From Massospora cicadina (Eukaryota; Entomophthoromycota; Entomophthoromycetes; Entomophthorales; Entomophthoraceae), in assembly GCA_022478985.1 (NCBI GenBank), contig JAKSZP010017367.1, forward strand, positions 1-64,000: DNA of 64,000 nt, written 5' to 3'. The translations under genes were made by a program, and so were the position numbers. This document shows positions 6,327 to 61,695 of the stretch, piece after piece (the first letter of the stretch is position 1; each line of letters begins with the position of its first letter). Under the pieces are notes generated by a model that did no database searches, was not told the origin of the DNA, and saw only the letters and a program-made list of their open reading frames with translations.

Positions 6327-6903
6327 TGTAAAGATCGAATTTTTCTCAATAGTTGCATTTTCTCTCAGATTTAGATTTTCAGAATCTGAGTCAGATTGCT
6401 TTAAAATACTTTTGGCTCTGTTGTTTTAAACTCTTCGTTGTGCCTCACCCAATCTGTAGATTAGTCTTGTGTAAGACTAATCAATAACTCAGGTGAGGCC
6501 CCAAAAGGGCAGCCTTTATAAGGTGCATCTGCTAATCCCAAAGTTCACATTGGAATATCTACCCCTAGCATTCCCTTTCTGGGGAGCATTGTTGGTTGCT
6601 CCCCAGATGAGCTCTGGTCAGCGGGCCTTTTTTATCTCCTAGATAAAAAATAAAGTTTTGGGGTTTACATACCTTGCTTACCTGTTGGTATTTTTCATCC
6701 TTTTTCAAGGAGCTTTTTGAGAGGGTTGGGTTGGACCAGCCCCCAGAGAACCTTGCATAACCAACTAGTAGTAGGCAAAATTTGACGCTGTTGGAGCCTC
6801 AAACCTCTCCCTACTCAATTAGGCTACTTTAGTTGCTTGTCAGTGCACCAAAGAATCATTTTAATATACAGAAGTTGTAACTGGGGTTTTTCTGCCAATT
6901 ACA
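6327..6903 (+). repeat. LTR 1 of the non-coding LTR element
   Basis: 577 bp, from TGTAAAGATCG to CCAATTACA; aligned throughout with LTR2 and LTR3. Confidence 0.9.
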
Positions 6904-8963: not shown

Positions 8964-9541
8964 TGTAATGATTAATATTATCTCAATTGTTGCACTTTGA
9001 CTTGGATTTGGTTTTCCAAATATGAGTCAAATTGCTTTAAATTACTTTTGGCTCTGTTGTTTTGGGCGCTGGGTTATGCCTCACCCAAGTTGTCTTAAGG
9101 CTCATATGAGCCTAATCAAATACTTAGGTGAGATCCCCAAAGGGCGGCCTTTATAAGGCGCACCTGCCAATTCCAAAGTTCACTTCAGAATAATTACACC
9201 TAGCATTACCTTCCTGGGGAGCGTTGTTGGTTGATCCCCAGATGAGCTCTTGTCAGCGGGACTTTTTATCACCTATATAAAAAATAAAGGTTGTTTTGGG
9301 GTTTACATACCTTGCTTACCTGTTGGTCTTTTTCATCCTTTTTCAAGGAGCTTTTTGAGAGGGTTGGGTTGGACCAGCCCCCCAGAGAACCTTGCATAAC
9401 CAACTAGTAGTAGGCAATGTTTGACGCTGTTGGTGCCTAAAACCTCTCCCTACTCGGTTAGGCTACTTTGGTTGCTTGTTGGTGCACCAAAGAATCTTTT
9501 AATATACAGCAGTCAGAACTGGGGGTTTTCCATCCATTACA
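8964..9541 (+). repeat. LTR 3 of the non-coding LTR element
   Basis: 578 bp, from TGTAATGATTA to TCCATTACA, followed by the target duplication CACTG. Confidence 0.9.
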
Positions 9542-12915: not shown

Positions 12916-13440
12916 ACACAAAAGTGTTTTGTTAGCCCATGTCATGCATTATTCTAATCCGTACTGATCTTCCACAACTTCAAAGAAGAGTTTCAGGTGT
13001 TCATGGACACCAGTGATCTAACCATTGGGGCCATATATTACACAATTACAATTAAATAAGTACCTACATTCAAATTCCATCACCAAGTAATTTTCTAAGA
13101 ATAAATCAGTTATTAGATGTATGAGAAAGAAGTTCTGGCGGTGGTGTTTGCTTTTCAGAAATTCAGTATTTACTTTTGGACCAGTGGGTCAATTTATTCA
13201 CTGACAACTCAACGGTGAGTTTTATGCTGAATAATCCTATCTTGAATGGATGCCAAGACCACTGGTGGCATGAGCTGATGGTGTTCAACTTAAAATTAGT
13301 GCACCTTCCTGGACAGCTTAATGCGGTAGTAGATGGGCTATTAAAAATTCATAAAAACCCTGTGGGACCAGAAAACTTCCATATGGGGAGATCAAACTTG
13401 CAAAGGTGCTATCAAAATTATGGAGTTTATGAGAAGATTT
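12916..13440 (+). pseudogene. RNase H of element A
   Basis: After the solo LTR, the frame shows EFQVFMDTSDLTIGAIYY (about 12987-13040), the first catalytic-Asp block of Gypsy RNase H. YEKEVLAVVFAFQKF (about 13120) carries the conserved Glu block, and LFTDNSTVSFMLN (about 13193) the TDN block. HLPGQLNAVVDGLLK (about 13303-13350) is the G..N..AD.LSR end. Stops and a shift occur at about 13060. The order and spacing are canonical. Confidence 0.85.
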
Positions 13441-14943: not shown

Positions 14944-15206
14944 TGATAGTACACATATATGATTGTGCTAATATAAAATAAAATTACTTAATTATAATTA
15001 AAAAAAGTAGTTATCCTAGTGTGTTAAAAATGCTAAATAAAGCACATATCTATCCTAACAATAATTGCTTGTTAAATTTAGTACTAAAAAAATAATTGCT
15101 TGTTAAATTTTATTATAGCATTTGTTCCTAAATACCCTAAATAAAATAGTTTGAATGAAGATATTCATATATCTAGATATAAAAGAAGTTTACCATAGGA
15201 AATATC
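14944..15206. other. AT-rich spacer
   Basis: AT-rich. Contains a short direct repeat ATAATTGCTTGTTAAATTT (about 15060-15110); nothing else seen. Confidence 0.6.
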
Positions 15207-15509: not shown

Positions 15510-15671
15510 TATAATCTGAAAGTGGCACTGAAGGTTCATCCTTTTGATAAAGTAGAGACAATTCAGAAGAATGTGACAGCTGGTTTAAACATGGTTATAC
15601 AAAATAGGAACTATGTGCATACCTTTTAACAATTGTTTTAGCAATATGATATGTATAGAGAGGGAAAGGTT

Positions 15672-15718
15672 TTTTTTAGTACTAGATGGTCCCAACCCAA
15701 GGGGGGGATTCATCGATG
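15672..15718 (-). mobile_element. Ultrashort retroposon, copy 1 (47 bp)
   Basis: Read on the minus strand it ends GGTTGGGACCATCTAGTACT plus an A run. It is flanked by a perfect 16-bp duplication TAGAGAGGGAAAGGTT (15656-15671 and 15719-15734). The left arm of the foldback lacks it, giving the empty site directly. Confidence 0.92.
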
Positions 15719-15830
15719 TAGAGAGGGAAAGGTTGTACACTTAAATTATGATAAAAGAAAGTTTATTTATTTGTAAAGTTGTGTCTTTAAAACGTTAGTC
15801 CCAGAACTTTTTGAATGCACTGTGTACTTA

Positions 15831-18212: not shown

Positions 18213-19411
18213 AATGTCAGGTAGCAGTTGGGCTAGCAAAGTAAAGGGCACAGGATTGGTATCTGCACCATCCAAAGATGAAAAATCTCAAGAAACACTG
18301 GTGGCCTAAATAAAAATAAAAAACTGGCAGTTATTATATCCCCGGAGATTTTAGCCTGGCAAGCAAAGTGTAACCAGTTCATCAATGCTCCGCATTCCCA
18401 GCCACTGTTATCAGTGGAGCACAGGGTTTGAGTTTTCCTAAATATTAACTAAACGGCTCAAAGGAAAGTTTTGTGGAAGTGTTCACAACCATTTTCCAAA
18501 ATTAGTATATGTAGCACCACACTCCATGACCCATGGTTGGTTTGATCTCAGGTTTATAAACAAACAAGAAGTGGACGAAGCTGCACAGGTGCATGTGGTG
18601 GTAGAACTCCCCAATGGTCAACGGGTGGTTGAGATGAAGTGCACTCAGTGGACCAAGTCAAATCAAATTTTGTGACCTTTGACTTTCTCCCCACAACAAT
18701 TAAGCGAACAGTGCTGGAGCTCCACCTCAAGGAAGGGCTTAAAAGCTATGTGGAAATATACTTCTTTGGAATACAACGCTTTATGCTTATGCCAGACCTG
18801 TGCACAGGAAAAGCAATTGCCATGATCACCCCATCCACTGTCATTGCGTAAAATTTGACCCAAATCCCCCGCACCACAGTTGTGTTTGTTGGTAGGCTGG
18901 AATCTCAACTGTTCCACATCACAGTGGATAGCGCGCCCCCTTTCTGCACCTTCTGTTGCGCTTTTGGCCACAAGGCCCACACCTGCCCCGCCAAGGAGGG
19001 CATTACATAAAACGAAATTCTCCCCATTCAATGGGAAGTGCAGACACCTATTATGAACCAGCTATAGGCACTGTTGCCACCTTCCCATGGGGCGTGCAGA
19101 GGTGTTACATTCAGGTCAAACCTGTGTCCCTGCAGGAGCGCAATAAGGTCAAGCAGGCCTGCAGAGCAGCAGCCAAGGCAGCAGCCATGGCCATGTCAGT
19201 GATCCCGCCTGCCCAGAACAAGGATGACATTAAGTCATTTGCCGCTAAAATGACTCTTGAATCTGTTCACCAATCAGATTGGGCCAGCCAACCTGATGAC
19301 CTGATGGGTGAGTCAGATTTACCCAAGCAATTATACCAAGGCTCGATCAAAACTGATTCTACCACCCACTTTCCTCCTGAGTTCTTATTGACCTTCATTG
19401 ATGCACCATAG
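18213..19411 (+). pseudogene. LINE ORF1 (gag-like, CCHC)
   Basis: The first ATG in context, at 18213, begins a serine/lysine-rich N-terminus (MSGSSWASKVKGTG) that soon reaches a stop. Further on, coding frames 18440-18660 and 18660-18850 give an RNA-binding-like domain (ELHLKEGLKSYVEIYFFG). At 18944-18986 CTFCCAFGHKAHTC is a CX2CX4HX4C zinc knuckle. After it a charged, alanine-rich tail (AAAKAAAMAMS, about 19168-19200) runs to a stop at 19409. The product would coat LINE RNA. Stops near 18660, 18850 and 19008 show it is not translatable as one protein. Confidence 0.8.
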
Positions 19412-19599
19412 GAGAACACCAAATTGAAGAGTCATAACAAATTGGCAAAATTGTCAAAAGCGAAACCATTAATAAATCCACAGAATAAGTAACCCATACA
19501 GAAGATTACCCTGTAGCACAGTGCACCCATGGTGCCAAAGAGAAACATGCTGAAAAAGAGATGGCTGAAGGGCAAGGGGGCCCTTCTTTTAGCACCTAA

Positions 19600-22500
19600 G
19601 ATGTGTTGGGGGATCCTTCACAATAGGGACGTTGAATATTGCTGGACTCAAGGCCTCACTTCTCAGGCTATAACACTAAGTTTTTTAAAAAAGTAATTTT
19701 CCTGTGGACATCCTGGCTATCCATGAAACCCACTGTCAACACAGTGCCGAGGAAACATGGGCGACCATGCTCCTCCTCTCCCTTTCTTTTTAGTCGCCAC
19801 ACTGTGGGGTGCCTATACATGTGACCCATAATTTTAAATTTATTTCTAAAAATTTGTACCTGATGGTCATGTGCTTGTAGTGTCCTTTTTGTGGGATAAA
19901 AAGTGCACGCTATCATTAATATTTATGCCCAACATGTGCGCAGGCTCACTGGAAATTCTTCTTGGCCGTTACTTCCCTCCCACTTCCCTCTGACCCATTT
20001 GTGGTGGGTGACATGAACTGCTGGGCCAACCCAGCCACTGACTGCTAGCCTTCTGCGCCTGCCCCCACGCAGGGCCACATAGATCTTTGCGTTATAAAAG
20101 CCACTTTGGGGCTGTTTGATAACATGTTTAAACATGCACCGCTGCTCCCCAACATGTCCCATCACCATGTGCACAACGGTCAGCTGAGGTCTATGTCCCA
20201 CATTGACCTTATTCTTTCCCCATTGAACTTTTGGTCTCAAGTTGCACACTTTATGATGACAAAAATTGATTTCTCTGACCACAGGTTGGTGTCAATTTCA
20301 TTCTCTTTGTTGCACCCAATGACACAAGTGCCAAAGTGGTGCAGACTTCATCCAGCTGAGATCATGTCACCCAGGTTTTCCTCATGGGTGGACACCAAAG
20401 CTTTGGCATTGGAGTTCACCACACCATTCTGTGTGGACCCACTTACTACCTGGTCAACCTTCAAAGCAAACACCATCCACCAGTAATGCCACCTCTCATC
20501 ACGTCACTCTCAGGCTGCATCAGCAGTCATTATGCGCATAGCTTGCAGAAGTGGACCACCTGGAGTCTAACGTCCTGGCTGCAGGCTACAGCCTGGTTTG
20601 GGGTCATAAGTGGGCAGAAGTGTCTGCTTGTCTCAACAACTGGTAAGACAACACAAACATCACATTTGTGTGCAGTATAATGCAAAAAATATAATGGTGG
20701 GTGACACGTGCTCCACCTATTTTTCCAAAAATCCTTTGCACTGCGACAGAGCTTGGCCTGCACACAGGTGAGGCGGCCAGACCACTCCATTGCAGATACT
20801 GCAGCCAAAGTGGCAATCAAAATTCGAAATTATTAATGTAAATTGTAGTGCTCCAATCTAGTCAAACTGGCTGAAGTTGAAAAATTTCTTGAAAGTGCAC
20901 ATATCCACACCATTTCCTATTACCTGGAGTTGATGAAATATAATTTCAGAGGACAAAATATGGTATGCCATTCATGGCGCACCACACAGGAAATGCCCAG
21001 GTTAAGATGAGATTTTTATTATGAGTTCTATAAGAGATATTTTAAATTATTTCTCCTTTTTTTGCTTGCCTCAATGAATCAGTGTTTGTTATAAACGCGC
21101 CTCCTTCCTGGGAGTCAGTAGGCTTTCACAATAACGCTGTATAAAAAAGGGGTTAAGCTGGACTTGGCCAACTGGCGGCCCATTTTACTTACTAATGCAG
21201 ATACTAAATTATCTACTAAAATTATGGCCAACTGCCTAGGGGAAGTTGCCTCTTATATCTTTTCCTCTGAGAAATTTTGGTTTCATCCCCAAGCGGTCTA
21301 TATGGGACAACAAAAACATTGTAGCCAACGTCTGCCAATCTACGGCTACTGGGGCACTTGTTTTTTAGAATAGCAGATGGCTTATGATAGAGTCAACTGG
21401 GATTACCTCAAAGCCTGCCCCCACAAGTTCCACCTCCCCCATTGGTTCATTAATTGGGTGATGTTGCTTATGAAATCTGCCACAATGGCTGTGCGTGGCC
21501 CTGACTTCCTCACTGACATAGTTTGCCCTTAAAGGGGCCTCCATCAAGGGGACCCTTTGAGCCCACTTTTGTATAACTTAAGCCTCGACCCACTTTTATG
21601 CAACATGAATGCCCGCTCTACTGGTGTCCATGTGCAATGCCAAGCACCTGTTAAGATGTTGGTGTTTGCTGATGATTGTGTGGTTATGGTGCCTAATGAC
21701 CAAGATGCATGCGCACTTGAGGCTATTTTCCAGGTTTACTCCAGGGTAAGTAACTCTGCACTTAACGCCTCCAAAACTGAAATCATTCTCCTTGGTTGAT
21801 TCCAAGCTCTCTGGTCACCAGCAACCGTTTCCTACCTCCTTCTGCAGCTATCTCACAGGTTTGCTTGCCCTAACCACCCCATACCGCTCCGCTTGTGCTC
21901 CCTTTTGTGCTAAGACCCACTGCTGTTCTGGTATGCCATTTGGGTGTATGGCTGGAGGTGGGAGGGTACGCCTCATCAGTGATGGAGCACCATATCCTGG
22001 ACAATGTCAAAAACGCATCGCCTCCCTTAGAGCCCACCAAACTTCCTTACCAGGCAGGGTTGTGCTGGACAACTCTATGCTCCTATATAAAGTTTGGTTT
22101 GTGGCTCATGCTATCGCCTTTTCCTCATCTAACTTCACCTCGTTATATGCCCTCCAGCAAGGGTGTCTTTGGTTAGGCCGCCCACCGCCAGTGCGCCTGG
22201 ATGTCTTGTTTGACCCTCGCCATAGTAGTGGTATAGGCCTGCTCAACTTCAAGGCCCATACCACCAAAATACTTGGCACCTGTATTGCTGCAGTCACCAA
22301 CCCTACACTCCAAGCCCAACACTGGTCATGCGCAGCCTGCTCCAATTTTTCCTGTGCCCTGGGCCTCAGCAATCCCTCCCACCCCCATTCTCTGTTAAAA
22401 TATCTTGCCTCACATCCCTCTGCTGTGGGCACACATGGGACGTCGCTCATTTCAAACAAATTCTCCTATCCATGTGGAGTGCTGAGTGGATAATTTTGCA

Positions 22501-23290
22501 TCATTGGGCACACCACCCAGAGGGGTCTCCCTACTCCCCGCTTTACACAGGAAGTACAAGGCCAAGCCATTATGAACAGTTTGATATTAAGGAAGTTCCC
22601 AATCATGGCCAGAATGGATTATCTGGACATCTTGGACTTTCCCTACTCCCTAGAAACCTAGAAAGCCATCTGGAAGTACGCCCATCACCCTCTTTTGCAG
22701 CCGCATGTTTGTTCCCATGTGTGGTGCTGCTTGAAATGGGTATATCATACTGTCAAGCGATCCAATGCATCACACTCCTCATGTGTTATGTGTGACCAAT
22801 ATATGACTTTGGTCCACTGCCTGGAATGATTCCCTCCATCAAAAGCGATCTGGTGTAAGGTTCAACGTCTCTTTTGCCGGAAGCAAATACAGCCCTACAG
22901 CCTATCTAAGGACATGTTTGCCTTGTCCTTGCATTCCTATAAACCCTTCCCTTCAAGCCTTAGTGATAGCAATTGCAATGTGGACTATCCACACGGTTGT
23001 CTTGGATGCCATTTCAGGTTCTACTCCCACCCTCCAGGAAGCTGTACGCTGATTTTAGTCACACCTTATGGACCACTTTCAAGCATGGTATTTTGATTAC
23101 CTACCATCCCATCAATGACAGTTGGTCTCATCCTGGTTTCCGGTTTGGTTCATCACTTCAGACCCTTTCCTTCATATGTGTTCAATAGTGGCTCAAGCCT
23201 CTACTCACGATACCTCCCTTCCTTTATTTGGCATTCCCGCTGGCAACAGGAGACAGCACTAGCTTCTCAGGGGTGCCTCTAACTTATATT
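19600..23290 (+). pseudogene. LINE ORF2: APE endonuclease and reverse transcriptase
   Basis: The endonuclease shows VVGDMNCW.NPATD (about 20005), SHIDLILSPLNFWS (about 20197) and DFSDHRLVSISF (about 20269) with the catalytic SDH. The RT shows NWRPILLTNADTKLSTKIMA (about 21169), QMAYDRVNWDYLK (about 21373), GLHQGDPLSPLLYNLSLDPL (about 21536), FADD at 21665-21676 and LNASKTEIILLG (about 21760). The C-terminus has CVMCDQYMTLVHC (about 22786), a zf-RVT-like Cys/His motif. The product would nick target DNA and prime reverse transcription on it. Several stops and frameshifts inactivate it. The conserved FADD and SDH suggest moderate age. Confidence 0.88.
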
Positions 23291-26417: not shown

Positions 26418-26845
26418 GTTCCCAGAGGACCAATAACTATTAAAATGGTCATGTCCTAAGATTTTGGTCATGTCCTAAGATCTTGGTCAAGTCTAAAAGA
26501 GGACCACTGAACTAAATAGATGTTTAAAATTATTTGAGGTGGGTCGACCTTGGGACAGATATACCACACTGAGAATCTTTTTCTAGCCAGTACAGGTTTC
26601 AAACTCAAAACCTGCACTAGGGGTGGAAGCAGTTTTACCCGCTCAGCTAATCACCCTTCCAAATAGATGTTTAAATCCTAAGAGAATAATATTTTGAATT
26701 ATTAAAACTGGTAGGTCAGAGTATACCTAGGAACCAGTTGGATGAAGGGGAAAGGAAGGACATCTGAACCTAACTGTAAGTCAAAAGTCCAATTGCAAAA
26801 GAAAAATACAAAAAATAGATAAAAATATAATATATTAAATATTTA
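26418..26845 (+). repeat. Pol-flanking internal repeat, left copy
   Basis: Without its SINE insertion, about 290 bp that aligns with 30464-30740: GTTCCCAGAGGACCA, then GGTCATGTCCTAAG, then TAGGAACCAGTT in the left copy, against GTTCCCAAGGGATCA, GGTTATGTCCTAATG and TAGGAACTAGTT in the right copy. Confidence 0.7.
26529..26660 (-). mobile_element. SINE-A inserted in element C
   Basis: Reverse-orientation SINE-A with a perfect 15-bp target duplication AAATAGATGTTTAAA (26514-26528 and 26661-26675). Read on the minus strand, GATTAGCTGAGCGGG is the A-box segment and GGTTTTGAGTTTGAAACC the B-box segment. Confidence 0.93.
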
Positions 26846-30740: not shown

Positions 30741-31933
30741 GAAAAAAGATATATTTTATAATTTTATCTTTAGTTATCCTCATCTCAGGGATGATTCTGC
30801 CTATGGTGCCTCTTGGGGAGGGAGGATAAGTTGCATTAGGAGTACACAAAACGTCAAAATTTATGTGAGATTGGATGCTTGTGAGGGCTAGACTTACTTG
30901 AAACCAAGTTTGTTGAGTAGATGCTGATCCCTGTGAGAAAGCAACTAGGGGAAGGGAGATGGAAATGTCAGAACCTGCCAAGTGATACCCCAGTTAGGGG
31001 GAAGCAACAGAAAAAGAAGAGGCAGTTTGTAAATAACCCCAAGTAATCCTGATATGGCACCAGAGCAAGAAGATTGGACTTGAGTGCTTGCTGACAGGCT
31101 TTGATAAGAACATTGAACATATGGTCTAGCATCAAGCAAGGGATACTAAACAGTGGTTGCCAAATCATGGCCCCTATTAAAGCCATCAGGGGAAGATACC
31201 AATGAAATGTTCCAGAAATGAGATAGTCATGCAGGGAGTAAATGACATCCTGAATTTGACGACTACAAGCTTCTTGGAAGTGAAAGAAGAATGAGCAATG
31301 AAAGCCAGGAGAGGCTGGAAGCTTCATGGTCCAACTTTGAAGAACTTGACTGGAAAGCAAAGAGCATAGGCTGCAACTTCTCAATCTAGGATGTTTTTGA
31401 GATAAGAGGGGTTCAGAGCTATGGAATGAGCCTCAGTTACTTGGGCCCTCAATTCTGCATAGGGTAGTTCAAAATGTTCGCTGTATTCAATGGCTAGTTC
31501 AGTTACCAAAAACAGCTGGCTTCTAATACTGGCTGAGTTGGAAAAGGAACTCCAAAAGCAAATCCAATCTGGTGAGGAACAATCTTTTAAGAGCTGAGGG
31601 CATTGTTTCAGGAGGTTTGACAATGATGGTAGAGAATCTGTGAATGGATCTGAATCCAGGAGAGTTTTGAAGTCTAACTAAGGAATTGATGACAGAGGAA
31701 GGATTGGTTGCAAGTCAATAGAGACAATCACTAACCTAGTTTCATCAGGGTTGGATACTACTTCTGGTAATTCCATGGAAGGACTGGCCAATGGTTTTGA
31801 CTAGGAGTATGAGTCCTGGGAGTACCATAGAAGAGGTTCCAATATGCAGGTCAACTCATCAGCTGGAAGAGCTGAAGGTCTTTATCAGACATGCTATCAA
31901 GCAGTTGTTGGTACCAAGACTCTAAATTTGACA
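30740..31933 (-). pseudogene. Antisense coding-like region in element C
   Basis: The minus strand from an ATG at 31933 (MSNLESWYQQLLDSMSDKDL) reads protein-like through a few shifts. It passes SPSMELPEVVSNPDETRL, LDSDPFTDSLPSLSNLLKQC, ELRAQVTEAHSIALNPSYL (31381-31460) and a hydrophobic part (YLPLMALIGAMIWQPLF, about 31145-31195). No family is recognised. It lies between integrase and the 3' LTR in opposite orientation to gag-pol, where antisense accessory ORFs occur in some plant Gypsy elements. It could be a captured host gene. Confidence 0.55.
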
Positions 31934-33616: not shown

Positions 33617-35194
33617 CTTTAATTATATAGAATGGCGTCTCAATTTATTTCTTTTAATATTCAAAGCAGTCTTTATAATATAATAATTTTGGAATATAGC
33701 TTTTGGATAGTACTAAAATTTTTTATCTACACATGATACAGTCTCAAAAGTTGCATCTGATGGTGGATGGCAGGATAAACAAACAGCTGAAGGCAAGATT
33801 ATGTTTAAGAAACATCCACTTTAGTACTTAGGTGAGCTTCATAAAGTACAAATGCATCAGAATTTGACAACCTGAGTGGGATAGCTTCAGTTAGTTCATC
33901 ATCTAGTGTGCAAGGTTCTATAATGCTATGCTTTTACAGTCTTAACAACATCATCTAGTTAAAAATTGATAATGGTGTTTATAGTTGCCATAAGGCAAAG
34001 GCATTGATGCTTTAAATTCTAGGTCTGTTGTACTAGGGAAAATTTTATACTATTTGTTGGAGTATATCCATTTTATCACATTCATAATCTCCTACATTAT
34101 TAAAAATGTCGTCACCGCTCAGATTGTCCATCATTGGGAAGATATAACCTCACTTAGTAGCCACAGAGTGTACCTGGCAGAAAGCACAGGTATTTGATTT
34201 TGGGATTTAATGACCAGTTCCTTTTATGTATAAACTGTTAATGTTATTATAACATCAGCGGACTTCCTAATGAGATTTGTCTTCACTAGGGAAACGCACT
34301 TTGGCAAGATCAACTTGACAAAAATTGATAATAAGCGTTCTGGGTTGGGACCATATAGTACTAAAAAAAGATAATAAGCGTTCTTTATCTACTAATATTG
34401 GATCTTTATATAATAAATTCTAGACATGCTTCTATTTCAGATAATGTGCTCTTTAAGAGGAAAGATTTTCCCAATCTTTTTAAGGAGCTTTTTGTTTGGT
34501 TATGTAAGGTTCAAAACCTTTTGTATCCTTTGAAGGGGCTTCAGAAGTGTAAAGGCCTTTTTATCTTTAATTAAATTTAGTATAATAGATCCATCAGGCA
34601 ATAAATCCATGGGTGATGTTAAACTTATCATCAACTAGTTTTTCATATGAACTGATTTGATCATCATCTTTCCCAACAGAGGTGATGTAGGATTAAAGCC
34701 CAGTTCAATAGTGAATGCACTATTATGCAAAGAAAAAAACAAACCACTGCTGATGGAGGCAACGCCTTCATATCTCAAAGATGTAAATAAATTGGTTGCA
34801 AAGATCTCCAGGGGGCTTAGGAATAGCATTTATTAACTCAATGTCAGAGAATACCCCAAGTTGGTAGTTGCTTTATAGGCATTGGAAAGCTTTTATTAAC
34901 AGTGGTCCAGGCTCCTTTTAATAAATAATCTTCATAAGCATAAATTTTGATAGTATAAAAAAATCTTAGCAAGTGGGTAGCCCCTTGAGGTGGTAAGAAG
35001 CTAAGCCATCAGGAAGTTCACTAGATAGAATTCAAATAGATTTTTATCATTAATAAAGATAACCAGTAAGGAGGTTAGTCTGTTGAAATCAACTATAAAT
35101 GGATTTATAAGATGGTTCATGGGGTCTCTCTGCTTGGCGTAACTTTCTGAGCAAATCAACTTTGTTAAATTAAAAGCAAACACTTAATCGCACA
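33617..35194. other. Spacer with minus-strand coding-like fragments
   Basis: Minus-strand open stretches at 35183-35001 and 34829-34635 (SLHNSAFTIELGFNPTSPLL) and worn sequence between them look like an old coding region. No domain is recognised. Contains ultrashort retroposon copy 2. Confidence 0.4.
34342..34369 (+). mobile_element. Ultrashort retroposon, copy 2 (28 bp)
   Basis: GGGTTGGGACCATATAGTAC plus TAAAAAAA, between perfect 15-bp duplications GATAATAAGCGTTCT (34327-34341 and 34370-34384). The clearest example of the family. Confidence 0.93.
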
Positions 35195-37041
35195 CCAAAG
35201 TCTTGCTCTGATGTCATTGGATCCCCCACTGACTGTCCCAGCGTGGGGCAGTGGCGAAACTCCCCCTCCATTTTCTGTCCAACAGGAAAACGTGCTCAGA
35301 TTGGCTCACCCAGTCAATCCAAACCCTTGGGACAATTTGTTCCTCCCAAGGATCTTGATGCCCATCTTTCCTAAACCCAAGCAGTGCCCTGCTGCCCCCC
35401 GGTGCTCCCCCAGAGCAACATGCATATGGCCTTAGAGTCAAATATGGGAAATTCTTCCCCTATGACGACCAAGCCATTATCAAAATGGCTCAGGTGGTGA
35501 TGACACCAGCCTGTTTTAAGACTTCCACCCCTATAAGGGGTACTTTGATCTTGGCTTCCCCTGTGAAGCTGATGCAGCCACTGCAGCAACGGTGCCATTA
35601 ATTTTTAACAATATTCCCCTCCCAACAACTTGGACCCAGCTCCCAATGGACACCACCTTGGTGGTCCAGTTTGCTGGTTTGCCCACCCACCTCCCCCTGA
35701 AGTGCTCCACCAGGAGCTTATGGAAGGTTTGGCAGCCTACGGCGCCAACCACATCTTACAATTTGTGGTCCCCAAATGGGGCCACACGCCTTGCTGGGCT
35801 TCAGGTGTATGCCACAATCAGCCCTGAATTTACAAAAATTTCTCTGGCAATTTCACCTCATGCCACCATCCCATCTGCCCCCAATCATCCGTTCTGGGCC
35901 TGCGTTGAGGGCGGACGGATGATTTGTTCATCCTGTTTTGAGTTAGACCACTTGAAACATAAATGGCCATACTCAGAAACTTCCGCTGATGCCAAAAGTT
36001 TGCCTGACGCCCACCAATCTGCTGCCCACCCCGCGCCAACTCCAACATGGGGTATGATCCTACCATCCCCTCCTCCAATGCCTGATGCTGCAGCTGCACC
36101 TACAGCCACCAATCAGCACCCACCTTGGTCCAATGCCACAAATAATTCATCCAACCAAACATCAGATTGGATCCCAGTTTGATCCCATGAATCTGCAAGC
36201 AAATCAAACAAACCTCAACTGTATGATGATTACCCAATCCAATTCAACCAAAATACATAGGAATTATTGGATGAAATTGACGAATTAGGTAACATCATTG
36301 AAGAACTGACACTGCAACTTGAGCAGCTCTGTAACGCAGAATGGGATGCAAAATTCCCACCTCAGAAATATGTCTCACAACCTAACGCCAAACCGTTCTA
36401 CAGTGACCACCAGCTTGCAGTAGAAGCAGCCACCACACCAGATTGCCATCCACTTTGCAAAGCTGCCACCAAATCTGTGGCTGCGCCCACAGGAGGAATT
36501 CCACCTCCCATCATCCCCATAAATCTTACTGCACAAAGTAAGATCAACATGAAAACTTTACACAAAATCGTCACTGAAGCCATCCAGAATGTGGTAACAG
36601 TAGCACGGAATCTGAAAGCAAAAATAACCTGAACCAACATTGCCACATTTATTAAATTCCCAGAGGCTCACCTCAAAGCTGAAGACACTTTGGGAAAATA
36701 CATCGTTGGTATAATGATGGATGGCAACTATTCAGAAGTTCCAGTCATCAAGGATATTGAACCCCATGCCGTCAATGCCCCCACACCCTTACTATCTGCC
36801 TTAACACGCACCCTACTATGGAATGAGATGGATGCGGCCAAAGATGAGCCCCCCAATCCCCCTCCCCATCCACTATGGAGGGATAGCAGTATTCAATGCT
36901 CACCTGGTTGGATATTTTGTTAGGTACAATTCAATTGATCCATCCATTTTGGGCGTTTCATTTGAATCGTTTTTTCTATTATGATTTTAGCTTTAGTTTG
37001 GTAATGTCCATCCCCAGGTAAGCTTACCTCGGTTAAATAAA
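35195..37041 (+). mobile_element. Half-LINE: ORF1 only, with LINE 3' tail
   Basis: A LINE of a family related to 18213 and the same as 63600: the ORF1 runs straight into the 3' tail (GGTAATGTCCATCCCCAGG then TAAGCTTACCTCGGTTAAATAAAA, with a gap between quoted parts only), with no endonuclease or RT between. The tail closely matches that of SINE-C. Target duplications were not resolved. Confidence 0.75.
35211..36930 (+). pseudogene. ORF1 of the half-LINE (CCHC gag-like)
   Basis: The N-terminus MSLDPPLTVPAWGSGETPPP is shared with 63600. Then FHPYKGYFDLGFPCEADAAT (about 35522) is also shared. At 35925-35966 CSSCFELDHLKHKW is a zinc knuckle whose last Cys has become Trp. A Pro/Ala/Asn-rich linker follows, then a coiled-coil-like LGNIIEELTLQLEQL (about 36284) and a C-terminal part ending at 36921. 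Stops and shifts at about 35433, 35520, 36180 and 36630 break it. The long segments of 196 and 121 codons suggest it is younger than the LINE at 18213. Confidence 0.78.
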
Positions 37042-41479: not shown

Positions 41480-42447
41480 TTTGCCTTTAGTCTCTTTAGT
41501 GGTTTAAAGAAGAAAATAAAATTGTGAATGAGGATATCAACCAACTGGTACTAAAGGGGATGGTGGTGCCACAAAAGAGCAATAAGAGGCCTTGATCTAA
41601 GTTGTAGAAAAGAATAACTTGTTCAATTGTGTGATCATAGACTATAAGAAGATTGATACTATCATAAATAAGTACTCCTATTTTTTTAGTACTAGATGGT
41701 CCCAATACAAGTACTCCTATTACTTGCCACAAATTAGCAAAATACTAGACTTCCCAAGAGGAGCAAAATACCTCTTGGACCTAAGTTTTTATCTCTGAAC
41801 ATTTGTAGATCAAGCTACTGAAATAAGATCAGAATAAAAGTTATAAACACAATCCAGGGTCTTTACAAACCAACTCAGATGCCACTTTGGCTGTGTAATG
41901 CTCCTTCCACCTTCCAGCAAAAATTGACAGAATAATGGGTGATCTAAAAATTTCATGCATTCTACTATATATATTTGATATAAATGTTTTTTTGAGGACG
42001 TTCATAAAATATTTTCAGCACATGGAAGAAGTCTTCCACCATCTTACCACTGTAAACCAGAATATCAAACCATAAAAAGTTCACCTTCTATCAATAACAG
42101 CTTAAATACCTAGAGTTTGTTATTAAAAAACAAGGATTATGGGCTTAACTCACCAAAGTAGTTTCAATTAGTAATTTAAATGATAAAGTAGCAAAAGAGA
42201 CATTTAGGTTTTCTGGGATGATCAGCATCAACAATAACTCTTCTAAATAAATAAAAATGGGTTACACTACTACATCCTTAAAAATATGTTCAGTTTAAAT
42301 GTACACAAAATTCTTATCTAGCTTTTGACAAACTAAGGGTATTTTACTAATGAACCAATACTTATGTAATCAAATTCTTATAGACTTTCTATCGTTCAAG
42401 CAGATTTATCACTCACCACTATAGGGGTGGAAATTTCTTAGCTCAAC
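41480..42447 (+). pseudogene. Reverse transcriptase of Gypsy element D
   Basis: Blocks in order: NEDINQLVLKGMVVPQKSN, DYKKIDTIINKYSY..YLPQI (split by an ultrashort retroposon at 41682), PRGAKYLLDLSF, LWLCNAPSTFQQKLT, CILLYIFDINVF (about 41960, where YLDDINVF is expected, so the catalytic Asp pair is damaged), and FQHMEEVFHHLTTVNQNIK. Ty3/Gypsy type. RNase H traces follow before the SINE-C. Highly degenerate, older than elements C and E. Confidence 0.82.
41682..41708 (-). mobile_element. Ultrashort retroposon, copy 3 (27 bp)
   Basis: Minus-strand TTGGGACCATCTAGTACT plus A run, flanked by AAGTACTCCTAT (41670-41681 and 41709-41720). It interrupts the RT frame KYSY|YLPQI exactly; removing it with one duplicate restores the frame. 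Confidence 0.92.
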
Positions 42448-47160: not shown

Positions 47161-49054
47161 TATCAGTAATCAATATTGACCAACCATAATGGGCAAAAAT
47201 AAAGTTATATACAATTTTATTTCACATTTATCATTATAAAACTGTTGATTGACACTTGCCACCATTCTAAATTTAAATTAGGCAATTACCTAAACTATTG
47301 ATAATATCCTATCAACACACCAGTGACAACAATTTATAGGCATTATCCTTATATTCATAGTTGTTTAACTTTAATATTGATAAATAGAAAGGAGATTTTA
47401 CAAAAAAAACTGTTTTGCTTTAAATAATTATTTTGGAAGCTACTAATTTGCATCTGTCACCGCATTGGTGATAAGTTAAACTATTGATTGAGCTATAATT
47501 AATATTCTTTCATCATGCCAGTGATGAATCATCAGAAGAACTAACTTATATTTAATCACCAATGAGACTTACCATTTAATAAGTTTATGAGTCCAAATTA
47601 AAAATAGTCAATCATGATACTCTAAAAATTAAGTCTTGGAATACTTATAATATTCTAAGGATAATTCAATTGTTAGTAGTATCAAAAATATGGTCAAAAA
47701 AATTCAAGAAGTACTCATTATCCTCAACAATAGTGGGGGACAGCCCTACATATCCCCACAATGGCACCTCACGGTGACCATGGAGACCTATGTGGCACCT
47801 TTATAATTTTTAAAGGGTAAAAACAGTTGTTACAATGCTTGAAAATAAGTTGAACTCAGAAGAGAAGCTGGAGATCTCTAATACCATTGTGATAATCTTT
47901 TAATAGCAGTGTTTATGGAATAAAGTTGACTTTCAAATAAATTTTACAATGAAATTAAAACCCAAGAAAAAAAGGTATTTGAGTAATAAATTTTAATGAT
48001 TATAATTAAGGTTTAGGAGAAATTAATAATTAGTAAAAAAGTATAAATGTGAACACTACTGAGATAATAATATAAACATTATTGTGTTGAAACCCCTAAT
48101 ATTTTAAAAGTAATTATATTATAATTATTTAATTTATAATAAAAAACTGATGAAATAGTGAGCCACAAACCCTCTAAAAGTACAACGGAGATTAAAGTTT
48201 GTTGAGGGACTAATTAATTTATAGTAAATTCAGACCTAATTTTTACTATATTTCTAAACAATATCTTGTATATAAAGTGACACTAAAAATGTACTAGAAC
48301 ATGTTACATATACAAAACCACCATTCTTGTCCAAGTTTATCAATAATGAATCAATGCCATCTATAAGTGTGCCTGTTTGACTAAAACCTGATAATTACAA
48401 TACTCTGAACTAATTATGCTTAGGACTCTTAATATAATTCCAGAGTTTACAAGATGAACCTAGGATTTAAACTATGGCTTACAGGTTGAGGCTCAATAAG
48501 TAAAAACTAATTCTGCAGTAATAGAGCAACCCTAATACCCCCAGAATGTTGAGCCACCTTGTGACAACCTTGTAGATCTCCATGAGACCCTTAAAGCAAG
48601 TAACTTAGCAATATACAGCCTTGATAAGGACTTAGAGTTATATGATTTGCATATAATTTAAATGAAGCCTTGTTAAAGTACAGATACTTAAAGATACTAT
48701 TTTATGTAGCAGTACAACTGGAATTAGAGGGCAAACTATGACATATCAACAAGAATTAATATCACTGGCATTATGATCAAGGTAACAGTGTGTCACAGGC
48801 GCTATCTAAAATAATGACATCATTATGAGTTAACAAATAAACTTTGAGCAGGTATCCTGTCTTCATATGAAGATATAAATTGTTCTACACTTGATCCTAA
48901 CCACATCTATTAATTTTCTAAGGACAGTTTTGGTATGCATGTAACTAAATTTTTAAAAAACCTGATATATCTACTACTTATGATCTTGAAAAGTACACCA
49001 ACAAAATCAGTTTAAACAAATAATTCTATATTTAACTATATAATCATGCTAGCT

Positions 49055-49073
49055 TTTTTTTAGTACTAGATGG
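49055..49073 (-). mobile_element. Ultrashort retroposon, copy 4 (19 bp)
   Basis: Minus-strand CCATCTAGTACT plus A run between perfect duplications TATAATCATGCTAGCT (49039-49054 and 49074-49089). Only the last 13 unique bases of the family plus the A run are present. Confidence 0.88.
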
Positions 49074-49168
49074 TATAATCATGCTAGCTTTAAAGATTAG
49101 AAAAATTGCTTCAGTAAATTTATGAATTTCATGCACTTAATATAAAAAACATTTGCTATGAATAATTT

Positions 49169-49190: not shown

Positions 49191-49247
49191 TAGTAATTAT
49201 AACGGTTATGGTATTCTTATCATATAACATAATATATGTGCAAATGA

Positions 49248-49265
49248 ACCATCTAGTACTAAAAA
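49248..49265 (+). mobile_element. Ultrashort retroposon, copy 5 (18 bp)
   Basis: ACCATCTAGTACT plus A run, flanked by AATATATGTGCAAATGA (49231-49247 and 49266-49282). The A run merges with the duplication. Confidence 0.88.
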
Positions 49266-49634
49266 AATATATGTGCAAATGACTTTCAGGTTTCATGAAG
49301 AGTATTTATAGCATTTTAGCATCTTTCAAAGTGACAATATTTTAAACCATAAAAAATTATTGGTCAAATATATGTGTTGTTTTCAAATAACTTACTTGGA
49401 AAGTAAATTCTCAAGCTAGTAAGATTAATTAAATTTTTATTAACATGGGCTTAATTTTTATCTAGCATTTAAACAGGTAATAAATATGTATATTGTTATA
49501 TTATATATTATAAAATTATAGACATATGTCTATCTACGCTTTATAATATAAATTTATATCAATTTTGATCTAAGTAGATTAGCTTGGTTTTAACAGTGGC
49601 ATATAAACAAAGCTTAGTAATAAAAACTATTGTA

Positions 49635-49924
49635 GGGGGTGGAAGGCGAGTCGATAGGGCGTACGGCTACCAACCTGAAGGTTGCGGGTTCGATTCCCGC
49701 CCTTCGCGCATCGATCGGGGTGCCAGCCAAAGGAAGCTATTGGCGGTTAGTAGGTCTAATAACACGAAAACCTTACCCATGACGTAACCAGAAAAATTTG
49801 AGTCCCGATCCGGAGGTGGAAAAACTTTCTTCGACGGAGTTGACCCTGTTCAGGTTTCATGTCGATACTTTCTTTCTCCATTTCGGTAATGTCCGTCCCC
49901 TGGTCGGCTTGCCTCGAATAAATA
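49635..49924 (+). mobile_element. SINE-C, intact recent copy
   Basis: The tRNA-like head GGAAGGCGAGTCGATAGGG (A-box position) and perfect B box GGTTCGATTCC are followed by a body and the tail GGTAATGTCCGTCCCCTGG, TCGGCTTGCCTCG and AATAAATAA. The 16-bp target duplication AATAAAAACTATTGTA (49619-49634 and 49925-49940) is perfect. Its many intact CpG sites contrast with the copy at 42462. The head is too altered and embedded to be a functional tRNA. RNA polymerase III promoter boxes are intact, so this copy could still be transcribed. Confidence 0.95.
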
Positions 49925-59811: not shown

Positions 59812-60212
59812 TCAATTTCAACATTTTGTATTCTAATTTTAACATTTTGCATTCTAATTTTAAAAGTTTGCATTTTGATTTTGGTAATTTATATTTTGAT
59901 TTCAGCATTTTTTAATTATTTTATTATTTTATTATTCTTTTAATTTGATTTCAATATTATGTATTTCTATTCAATATATTACAAATCAACTTTGATATTT
60001 TATATTTTAATTTCAACATCTTATATTTTAATTTTAACACAATTTTTGGAAATAGGTTTCTTTTATTTCTGCTGAAATAAAGGCAAGCATATTATTGCCC
60101 ATTTTTTCTATTTAAAAAATATTTGTATATCCCTTATAAAATTATAATTTGCTAAAAGAAAATACTGATGCTTAGGAGATCAATGAGTCTGTAGCTAGAA
60201 CTAGATACAATA

Positions 60213-60264
60213 CAATCACCAATTGGTGTATTCCCCCTAGGTTGGGACCACCTAGTGCTAAAAA
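60213..60264 (+). mobile_element. Ultrashort retroposon, copy 6 (52 bp, longest)
   Basis: CACCAATTGGTGTATTCCCC, then CTAGGTTGGGACCACCTAG, then TGCT plus A run. Flanked by AGATACAATA (60203-60212 and 60265-60274). Its 5' part extends the family consensus and contains the dyad CACCAATTGGTG. Confidence 0.85.
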
Positions 60265-60274
60265 AGATACAATA

Positions 60275-61339: not shown

Positions 61340-61695
61340 TATCTTGAAATTTGTTTGTAAAATACAAAATTGATTTGTAAAATAATGAAGTTGAAATGCA
61401 AAATATTGAAATTGAAATGCAAAATAATGATTAGGTTGGGACCACTTAGTAGTAAAAAATATAAAATATTTGACTTGAAATATAAAATGTTCAAATTGAA
61501 ATATAAAATATTGAAATTGAAATGCAAAATAATGATTAGGTTGGGACCACTTAGTAGTAAAAATACAAAATATTTGACTTGAAATATAAAATGTTTAAAT
61601 TGAAATATAAAATATTGAAATTGAAATGCAAAATATTGAAATTGAAATGAAAAATGTTGAAATTGAAATGCAAATTATTGAAATTGAAGGAAAAA
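61340..61695 (+). repeat. Right 21-bp motif array with a duplicated 108-bp block
   Basis: Units of GAAATTGAAATGCAAAATAT type. A block of about 108 bp starting at 61431 and 61539 is duplicated together with an embedded ultrashort retroposon (GGTTGGGACCACTTAGTAGT plus A run) in each copy. Confidence 0.88.

Follow-up and report, generated by a model that had tools for sequence, protein, structure and literature searches.

Short inserts in Massospora cicadina share the 3′ end of a 6.44-kb LINE and fall into discrete length classes

The genome of the fungus Massospora cicadina contains very many short inserts that end in one and the same 3′ sequence plus an A tail and are flanked by target-site duplications, and that 3′ end is also carried by a full-length LINE encoding an endonuclease and a reverse transcriptase (RT). 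The inserts have discrete lengths, and copies of intermediate length are few. We consider it probable that the short inserts are extremely 5′-truncated LINE copies and that target-primed reverse transcription of this element mostly aborts in the initiation phase.

Results

Short inserts in the window

The window, i.e. the whole stretch of DNA analysed here, comprises 64,000 nucleotides of contig JAKSZP010017367.1. A first-pass annotation of the window had described a family of retroposons whose copies share their 3′ end, are truncated at the 5′ end and carry target-site duplications, a description that our analysis confirms. The insert that it considered cleanest, at 34327–34384, indeed consists of a 21-nt core and A7 between two perfectly matching 15-bp duplications. 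The copies in the window are as follows:

34327–34384, + strand: LINE 3′-end copy; duplication 34327–34341, LINE sequence 34342–34362 (21 nt), A7 34363–34369, duplication 34370–34384
15656–15734, − strand: copy of the ~41-nt class; LINE sequence 15678–15718, A-run 15670–15677 (T8 on the + strand), 16-bp duplications 15656–15671 and 15719–15734
15060–15110, + strand: 6-nt copy; AGTACT 15080–15085, A7 15086–15092, 20-bp duplications 15060–15079 and 15091–15110
41670–41721, − strand: 18 nt of LINE plus 3 extra nt; insert 41688–41708, exact 13-bp duplications
49039–49091, − strand: 12–13-nt copy; LINE part 49062–49073, exact 18-bp duplications
49231–49282, + strand: 13-nt copy; LINE part 49248–49260, A7, exact 17-bp duplications
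60203–60274, + strand: copy of a sister family with a GGTG/CACC stem; insert 60213–60259, delimited by a 10-bp duplication
61431–61560, + strand: two variant cores, 61436–61453 and 61541–61558, inside a local tandem duplication and with a changed 3′ end

The recurrences listed by the first-pass annotation at 15672, 41682, 49055, 49248 and 60213 all stand. The pair at 61431–61560 consists of variant cores in a tandem repeat and shows no target-site duplication of at least 9 bp. Its count of six copies with duplications was correct, their range being 10–18 bp and not 10–17 bp; the 6-nt copy at 15060–15110 was not on its list.

An 18-mer core has seven matches in the window at up to three mismatches, compared with a mean of 0.08 in shuffled sequence, and six of these seven are copies on the first-pass list. 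The seventh core-like match, at 13025–13042 (+), carries three mismatches and may be due to chance. A scan blind to the sequence of the insert, which required an A-run of at least 5, an exact duplication of at least 12 bp and an insert within 90 nt, returned seven inserts in the window; six end in AGTACT and the seventh sits in a tandem repeat. Used as a blastn query against the parent LINE described below, the window gave a single match, the copy at 15678–15719, in agreement with the earlier statement that the window holds no long copy.

Other sources of the 3′ end were considered and set aside. The CCCC/GGG part resembles the end of 5S rRNA or the T-arm of a tRNA, and neither Rfam nor ARAGORN gave a match over the window copies. 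A SINE with its own RNA polymerase III promoter (tRNA, 5S or 7SL) is likewise not what we find, the simple short copies being no longer than ~45 nt, and the upstream sequence once taken for a tRNA SINE turned out to be LINE.

The window has further features of its own. Long frames at 18660–22800 and 35520–36640 resemble decayed LINE proteins by eye; ten long window ORFs were compared with Pfam, and none of those scanned scored above the cut-off. The stretch 49600–49780 (+) resembles a tRNA and includes a B-box-like motif (GGTTCGATTCC, 49687–49697); it is perhaps a separate tRNA-derived SINE, and ARAGORN calls no tRNA in it. A pair of very similar stretches lies at ~6650–6850 and 9290–9490 (+).

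A full-length LINE carries the same 3′ end

We searched 1,469,884,898 bases (1.47 Gb) in 16,968 contigs. The RPC2 frame of this genome shows 100% identity over 99% to M. cicadina Rpc2, as against 81% for Neoconidiobolus thromboides and 80% for Entomophthora muscae; of COX1, only a fragment of 56 positions was recovered. The 22-mer core occurs at 26,812 places with up to two mismatches and its reversed control at none, and CCATCTAGTACTAAAAAA, i.e. the 12 nt at the end of the core followed by A6, is found exactly at 31,059 places. An exact match to ACATCGATGAATCCCC, possible only in copies of the ~41-nt class or longer, occurs at 6,720 places.

Some core copies extend upstream into coding LINE sequence. 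The parent is an endonuclease–RT LINE of ~6,444 bp (locus L031) with the same 3′ end as the short inserts, flanked on both sides by the perfect 15-bp duplication AGATTGGTCATGGCA. Its frames match RVT_1 (E = 8.8e-34) and Exo_endo_phos (E = 3.1e-10), with zf-RVT just under the cut-off. With RT and Exo_endo_phos domains, duplications, a shared 3′ end with an A tail and a variable 5′ end, the element is a LINE with an APE-type endonuclease. The solved RTs nearest by sequence are human L1 ORF2p chains (E ~1e-36), followed by R2; the element may belong to the L1 clade or to another such as Tad1. Loci L032, L033 and L035 align to L031 up to the same 5′ region. Near the 5′ part of the LINE, a tandem repeat of 371–376 bp varies between copies (L031–L035), and 5′-to-3′ distances differ among LINE copies by about the size of this repeat.

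The first-pass annotation had offered two origins for the family, a LINE that truncates almost immediately and a minimal RNA that is itself the mobile unit. The full-length parents support the former. As for the latter, the high copy number and the existence of a length class near 41 nt could be taken to point to a tiny retroposon that is autonomous and has a gene and a promoter of its own. Against this, full-length parents carry the same 3′ end, shorter classes reach down to 6 nt, and a promoter within 6–24 nt seems implausible. The loop of the 3′ end described below also varies much as it does in the LINE: among 16 long copies we counted TTG 11, TCA 4 and TCG 1, and among 32 short copies TTG 22, TCA 6, TCG 1 and other 3. 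Because the variants occur in similar proportions in short and long copies, the two fit an origin from one LINE RNA pool, with no sign in these sequences of a separate tiny gene. We regard the autonomous element as highly improbable.

Target-site duplications and junctions

The copy sample (n = 102) combines 91 of the 100 listed core places with chance neighbours and the window; because selection relied on an 18-nt core followed by A4, shorter copies are under-represented in it. The LINE is matched over at most 48 nt in 84 of the 102 copies, and 18 are long.

The duplications seen in the window recur beyond it. Exact duplications of at least 12 bp flank 66 of the 84 short copies, as compared to 0 of 1658 mismatched controls; at a threshold of 10 bp the figures are 68 of 84 and 13 of 1658, with a median of 16 bp among the 68. 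Eleven of the 84 show none of at least 9 bp at this step, and wider searches give one of 15–18 bp in three of these eleven, L025, L068 and L071. The A-run is 7–8 long in 62 of 84 short copies, and 41 of 73 junctions overlap by 0 or 1 nt. Duplication starts tend to AA after T, a tendency for which overlap with the A tail may account in part. Applied to 331,101 bases, which are enriched for the family as the loci had been picked by the core, the sequence-blind scan gave 85 matches, 79 of them with the AGTACT end; the reversed sequence gave 11.

Two chimeras also carry 18-bp duplications. Foreign sequence is joined at 18 nt of the LINE 3′ end in L068 and at ~44 nt in L071, and these template changes fall near two of the stop points described next.

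Most copies are very short or nearly complete

Simple short copies contain at most ~45 nt of LINE. The lengths of 78 simple inserts, taken from family-enriched DNA and excluding the 92-nt chimera L068, peak at 13–15, 17–24 and 39–43 nt, with a minimum of 6 nt and a single insert at 30–37 nt. The length maximum near 50 bp that had been predicted thus corresponds to one peak, at 39–43 nt, among several classes, and long copies do exist outside the window. When 45 consecutive exact places on C1–C3 were sorted by motif (L020, without an exact 18-mer, being excluded), 29 fell below the ~41-nt class, 11 were ~41 nt and 5 were long. Of 20 places that have CCATCTAG and lack the longer core, 12 are inserts of 10–15 nt.

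At the other extreme, 16 of the 18 long copies agree with the LINE over all 400 nt compared or over 399 of them, and the LINE 5′ end is present in 12 of the 18 (in two, C7 and C13, via the list of 5′ ends). In L038 the LINE runs to the edge of the locus (~843 nt at 92%); L008 has an internal deletion with its joint 59 nt from the 3′ end and starts ~240 nt inside the LINE; and L003 ends at ~507 nt. Among the 102 copies, L003 is the one known to stop anywhere from 49 nt up to near full length, and four further long copies, including L038, are of unassigned extent. Loss per nucleotide amounts to ~0.036 over the first 48 nt and to at most 5e-5 thereafter, a drop of ~690-fold in which the late figure is an upper bound.

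Genome-wide counts were made with a motif just past the 41-nt stop (2,125 exact places) and with an 18-mer from the 5′ terminus of the LINE (2,522), two numbers that are not directly comparable, as motif exactness differs: the former is exact in 11 of the 18 sampled long copies (and in 0 of 84 short ones), the latter in 10 of 10 stretches in which the 5′ end was read. Scaled by motif exactness, the two counts suggest that about seven in ten long copies retain the 5′ end. Direct pairing agrees: for 70 of 100 listed past-stop places, an exact 5′ end of the LINE lies 6.0 to 7.1 kb away. Two of the other 30 are interrupted by the start of a contig, and 28 are perhaps truncated, mutated, rearranged or cut.

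These lengths bear on the proposal that LINE RNA, or intermediates of insertion, are cleaved by host factors at scattered sites. Passages of PMC10830420 favour host-factor cleavage for truncation of human L1, arguing that an RT of such processivity makes polymerase inefficiency an unsuitable explanation. Scattered cuts predict lengths spread over 6.4 kb, and with one known intermediate in 102 copies we find this explanation very unlikely for the present LINE.

Stop positions and a candidate 3′ stem-loop

The LINE 3′ end can be folded as GATG-AA-TCCC ... GGGA-C-CATC, a candidate stem-loop. Its folding energy is unremarkable (z = 0.14, −0.19, −0.46 and −1.96; separate estimate 0.29), and support for it rests therefore on compensatory changes that retain the pairing: GATG/CATC, GGTG/CACC and GTGG/CCAC, found in three families and only four sequences. 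With respect to this structure, copies end in the 3′ strand (13–15 nt), on the loop side (17–24 nt) or five nt beyond the 5′ strand (~41 nt). The predicted fold contains a stronger hairpin further upstream, which marks no copy end among the 102, save the deletion joint of L008; structure alone is thus not the barrier.

The ~41-nt class ends sharply at A(A)CATCG, five nt before the stem on its upstream side. Such an end is what the 5′ end of a discrete RNA would give, and this class might come from a LINE transcript that is cleaved, or degraded from its 5′ side, as far as a point shortly before the stem-loop, perhaps the point at which bound RT shields it, the stub then being copied to its end. 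The single copy of the third family, a 44-nt insert with a 16-bp duplication (L028, − strand, 1062), likewise begins 5 nt upstream of its own stem, and the RT elsewhere passes ~6.4 kb in most copies. A discrete RNA of this size leaves the 6–24-nt classes unexplained, however, and 29 of the 45 consecutive copies are shorter than ~41 nt. We hold this origin to be possible but rather doubtful for the ~41-nt class; for the 6–24-nt copies, the minimal RNA that had been suggested as the mobile unit is not supported.

Discussion

In this study we describe a LINE whose copies in the M. cicadina genome are either stubs or, for the most part, nearly complete. We favour abortion of target-primed reverse transcription during initiation as the origin of the stubs: the stops would reflect dissociation of the RT, and the stem-loop would be what the RT holds. 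The RT would begin synthesis within the short A tail and would next have to copy the candidate 3′ stem-loop. Most events would abort there, in the 3′ strand, on the loop side or five nt past the 5′ strand, and the aborted cDNA would still be integrated at the target site, flanked by duplications of the normal kind. An RT that has passed the last stop would turn processive and mostly reach the LINE 5′ end.

A more general formulation, to which we give an even chance, is that of a checkpoint between initiation and elongation that resembles promoter escape: the RT would pause at fixed points of its 3′ recognition hairpin, the majority of events would end there with their products still repaired to clean insertions, and 5′ truncation of this LINE would be mainly a failure of initiation. 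The cause of 5′ truncation in most new LINE copies is described as ‘not well understood’ in PMC10830420.

The inserts share several traits with known systems, as far as the passages cited here describe them. Human full-length L1 has a duplication peak at 14–16 bp (PMC2912911), and copies of Anolis L1 are either cut short early, before reaching 1 kb, or tend to be complete (PMC5389967). As in these elements, 3′ ends are retained and duplications are present; unlike in them, the early stops fall within ~45 nt and in discrete classes, and some inserts contain just 6–15 nt of LINE. For Anolis CR1, many insertions below 50 bp have been invoked to account for a census discrepancy, how probable truncation is depends on how far the 3′ end lies, and full-length copies are few (PMC5389967). 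Insertions below 50 bp are thus common to CR1 and the present LINE, whereas the scarcity of intermediate lengths sets the latter apart. The candidate bulged 3′ stem-loop with its compensatory changes recalls the 3′ stem-loop of stringent-type LINEs (UnaL2, ZfL2, SART1 and one plant L1 lineage; PMC5135761, PMC3747384); truncation within the stem-loop, as seen here, is not described for those LINEs in the relevant passages of the two papers.

An expansion of LINEs in M. cicadina, after an expansion of Ty3 elements, has been reported (PMC11105155), in passages that name neither a family nor a 3′ end nor the lengths of inserts. Truncation that is severe, and L1 lengths that are bimodal, have been published; among titles and abstract openings of the open-licence literature we found no account of a LINE with stops so early and so discrete, in classes below 45 nt, and with mostly complete copying beyond them.

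The record of this one element separates early abortion from processive copying and does so with nucleotide positions. It indicates that marks of 6–45 nt can be left behind by a LINE in very large numbers, which ordinary repeat annotation probably misses. The stubs scattered through this giant fungal genome are a record of where reverse transcription seems to fail.
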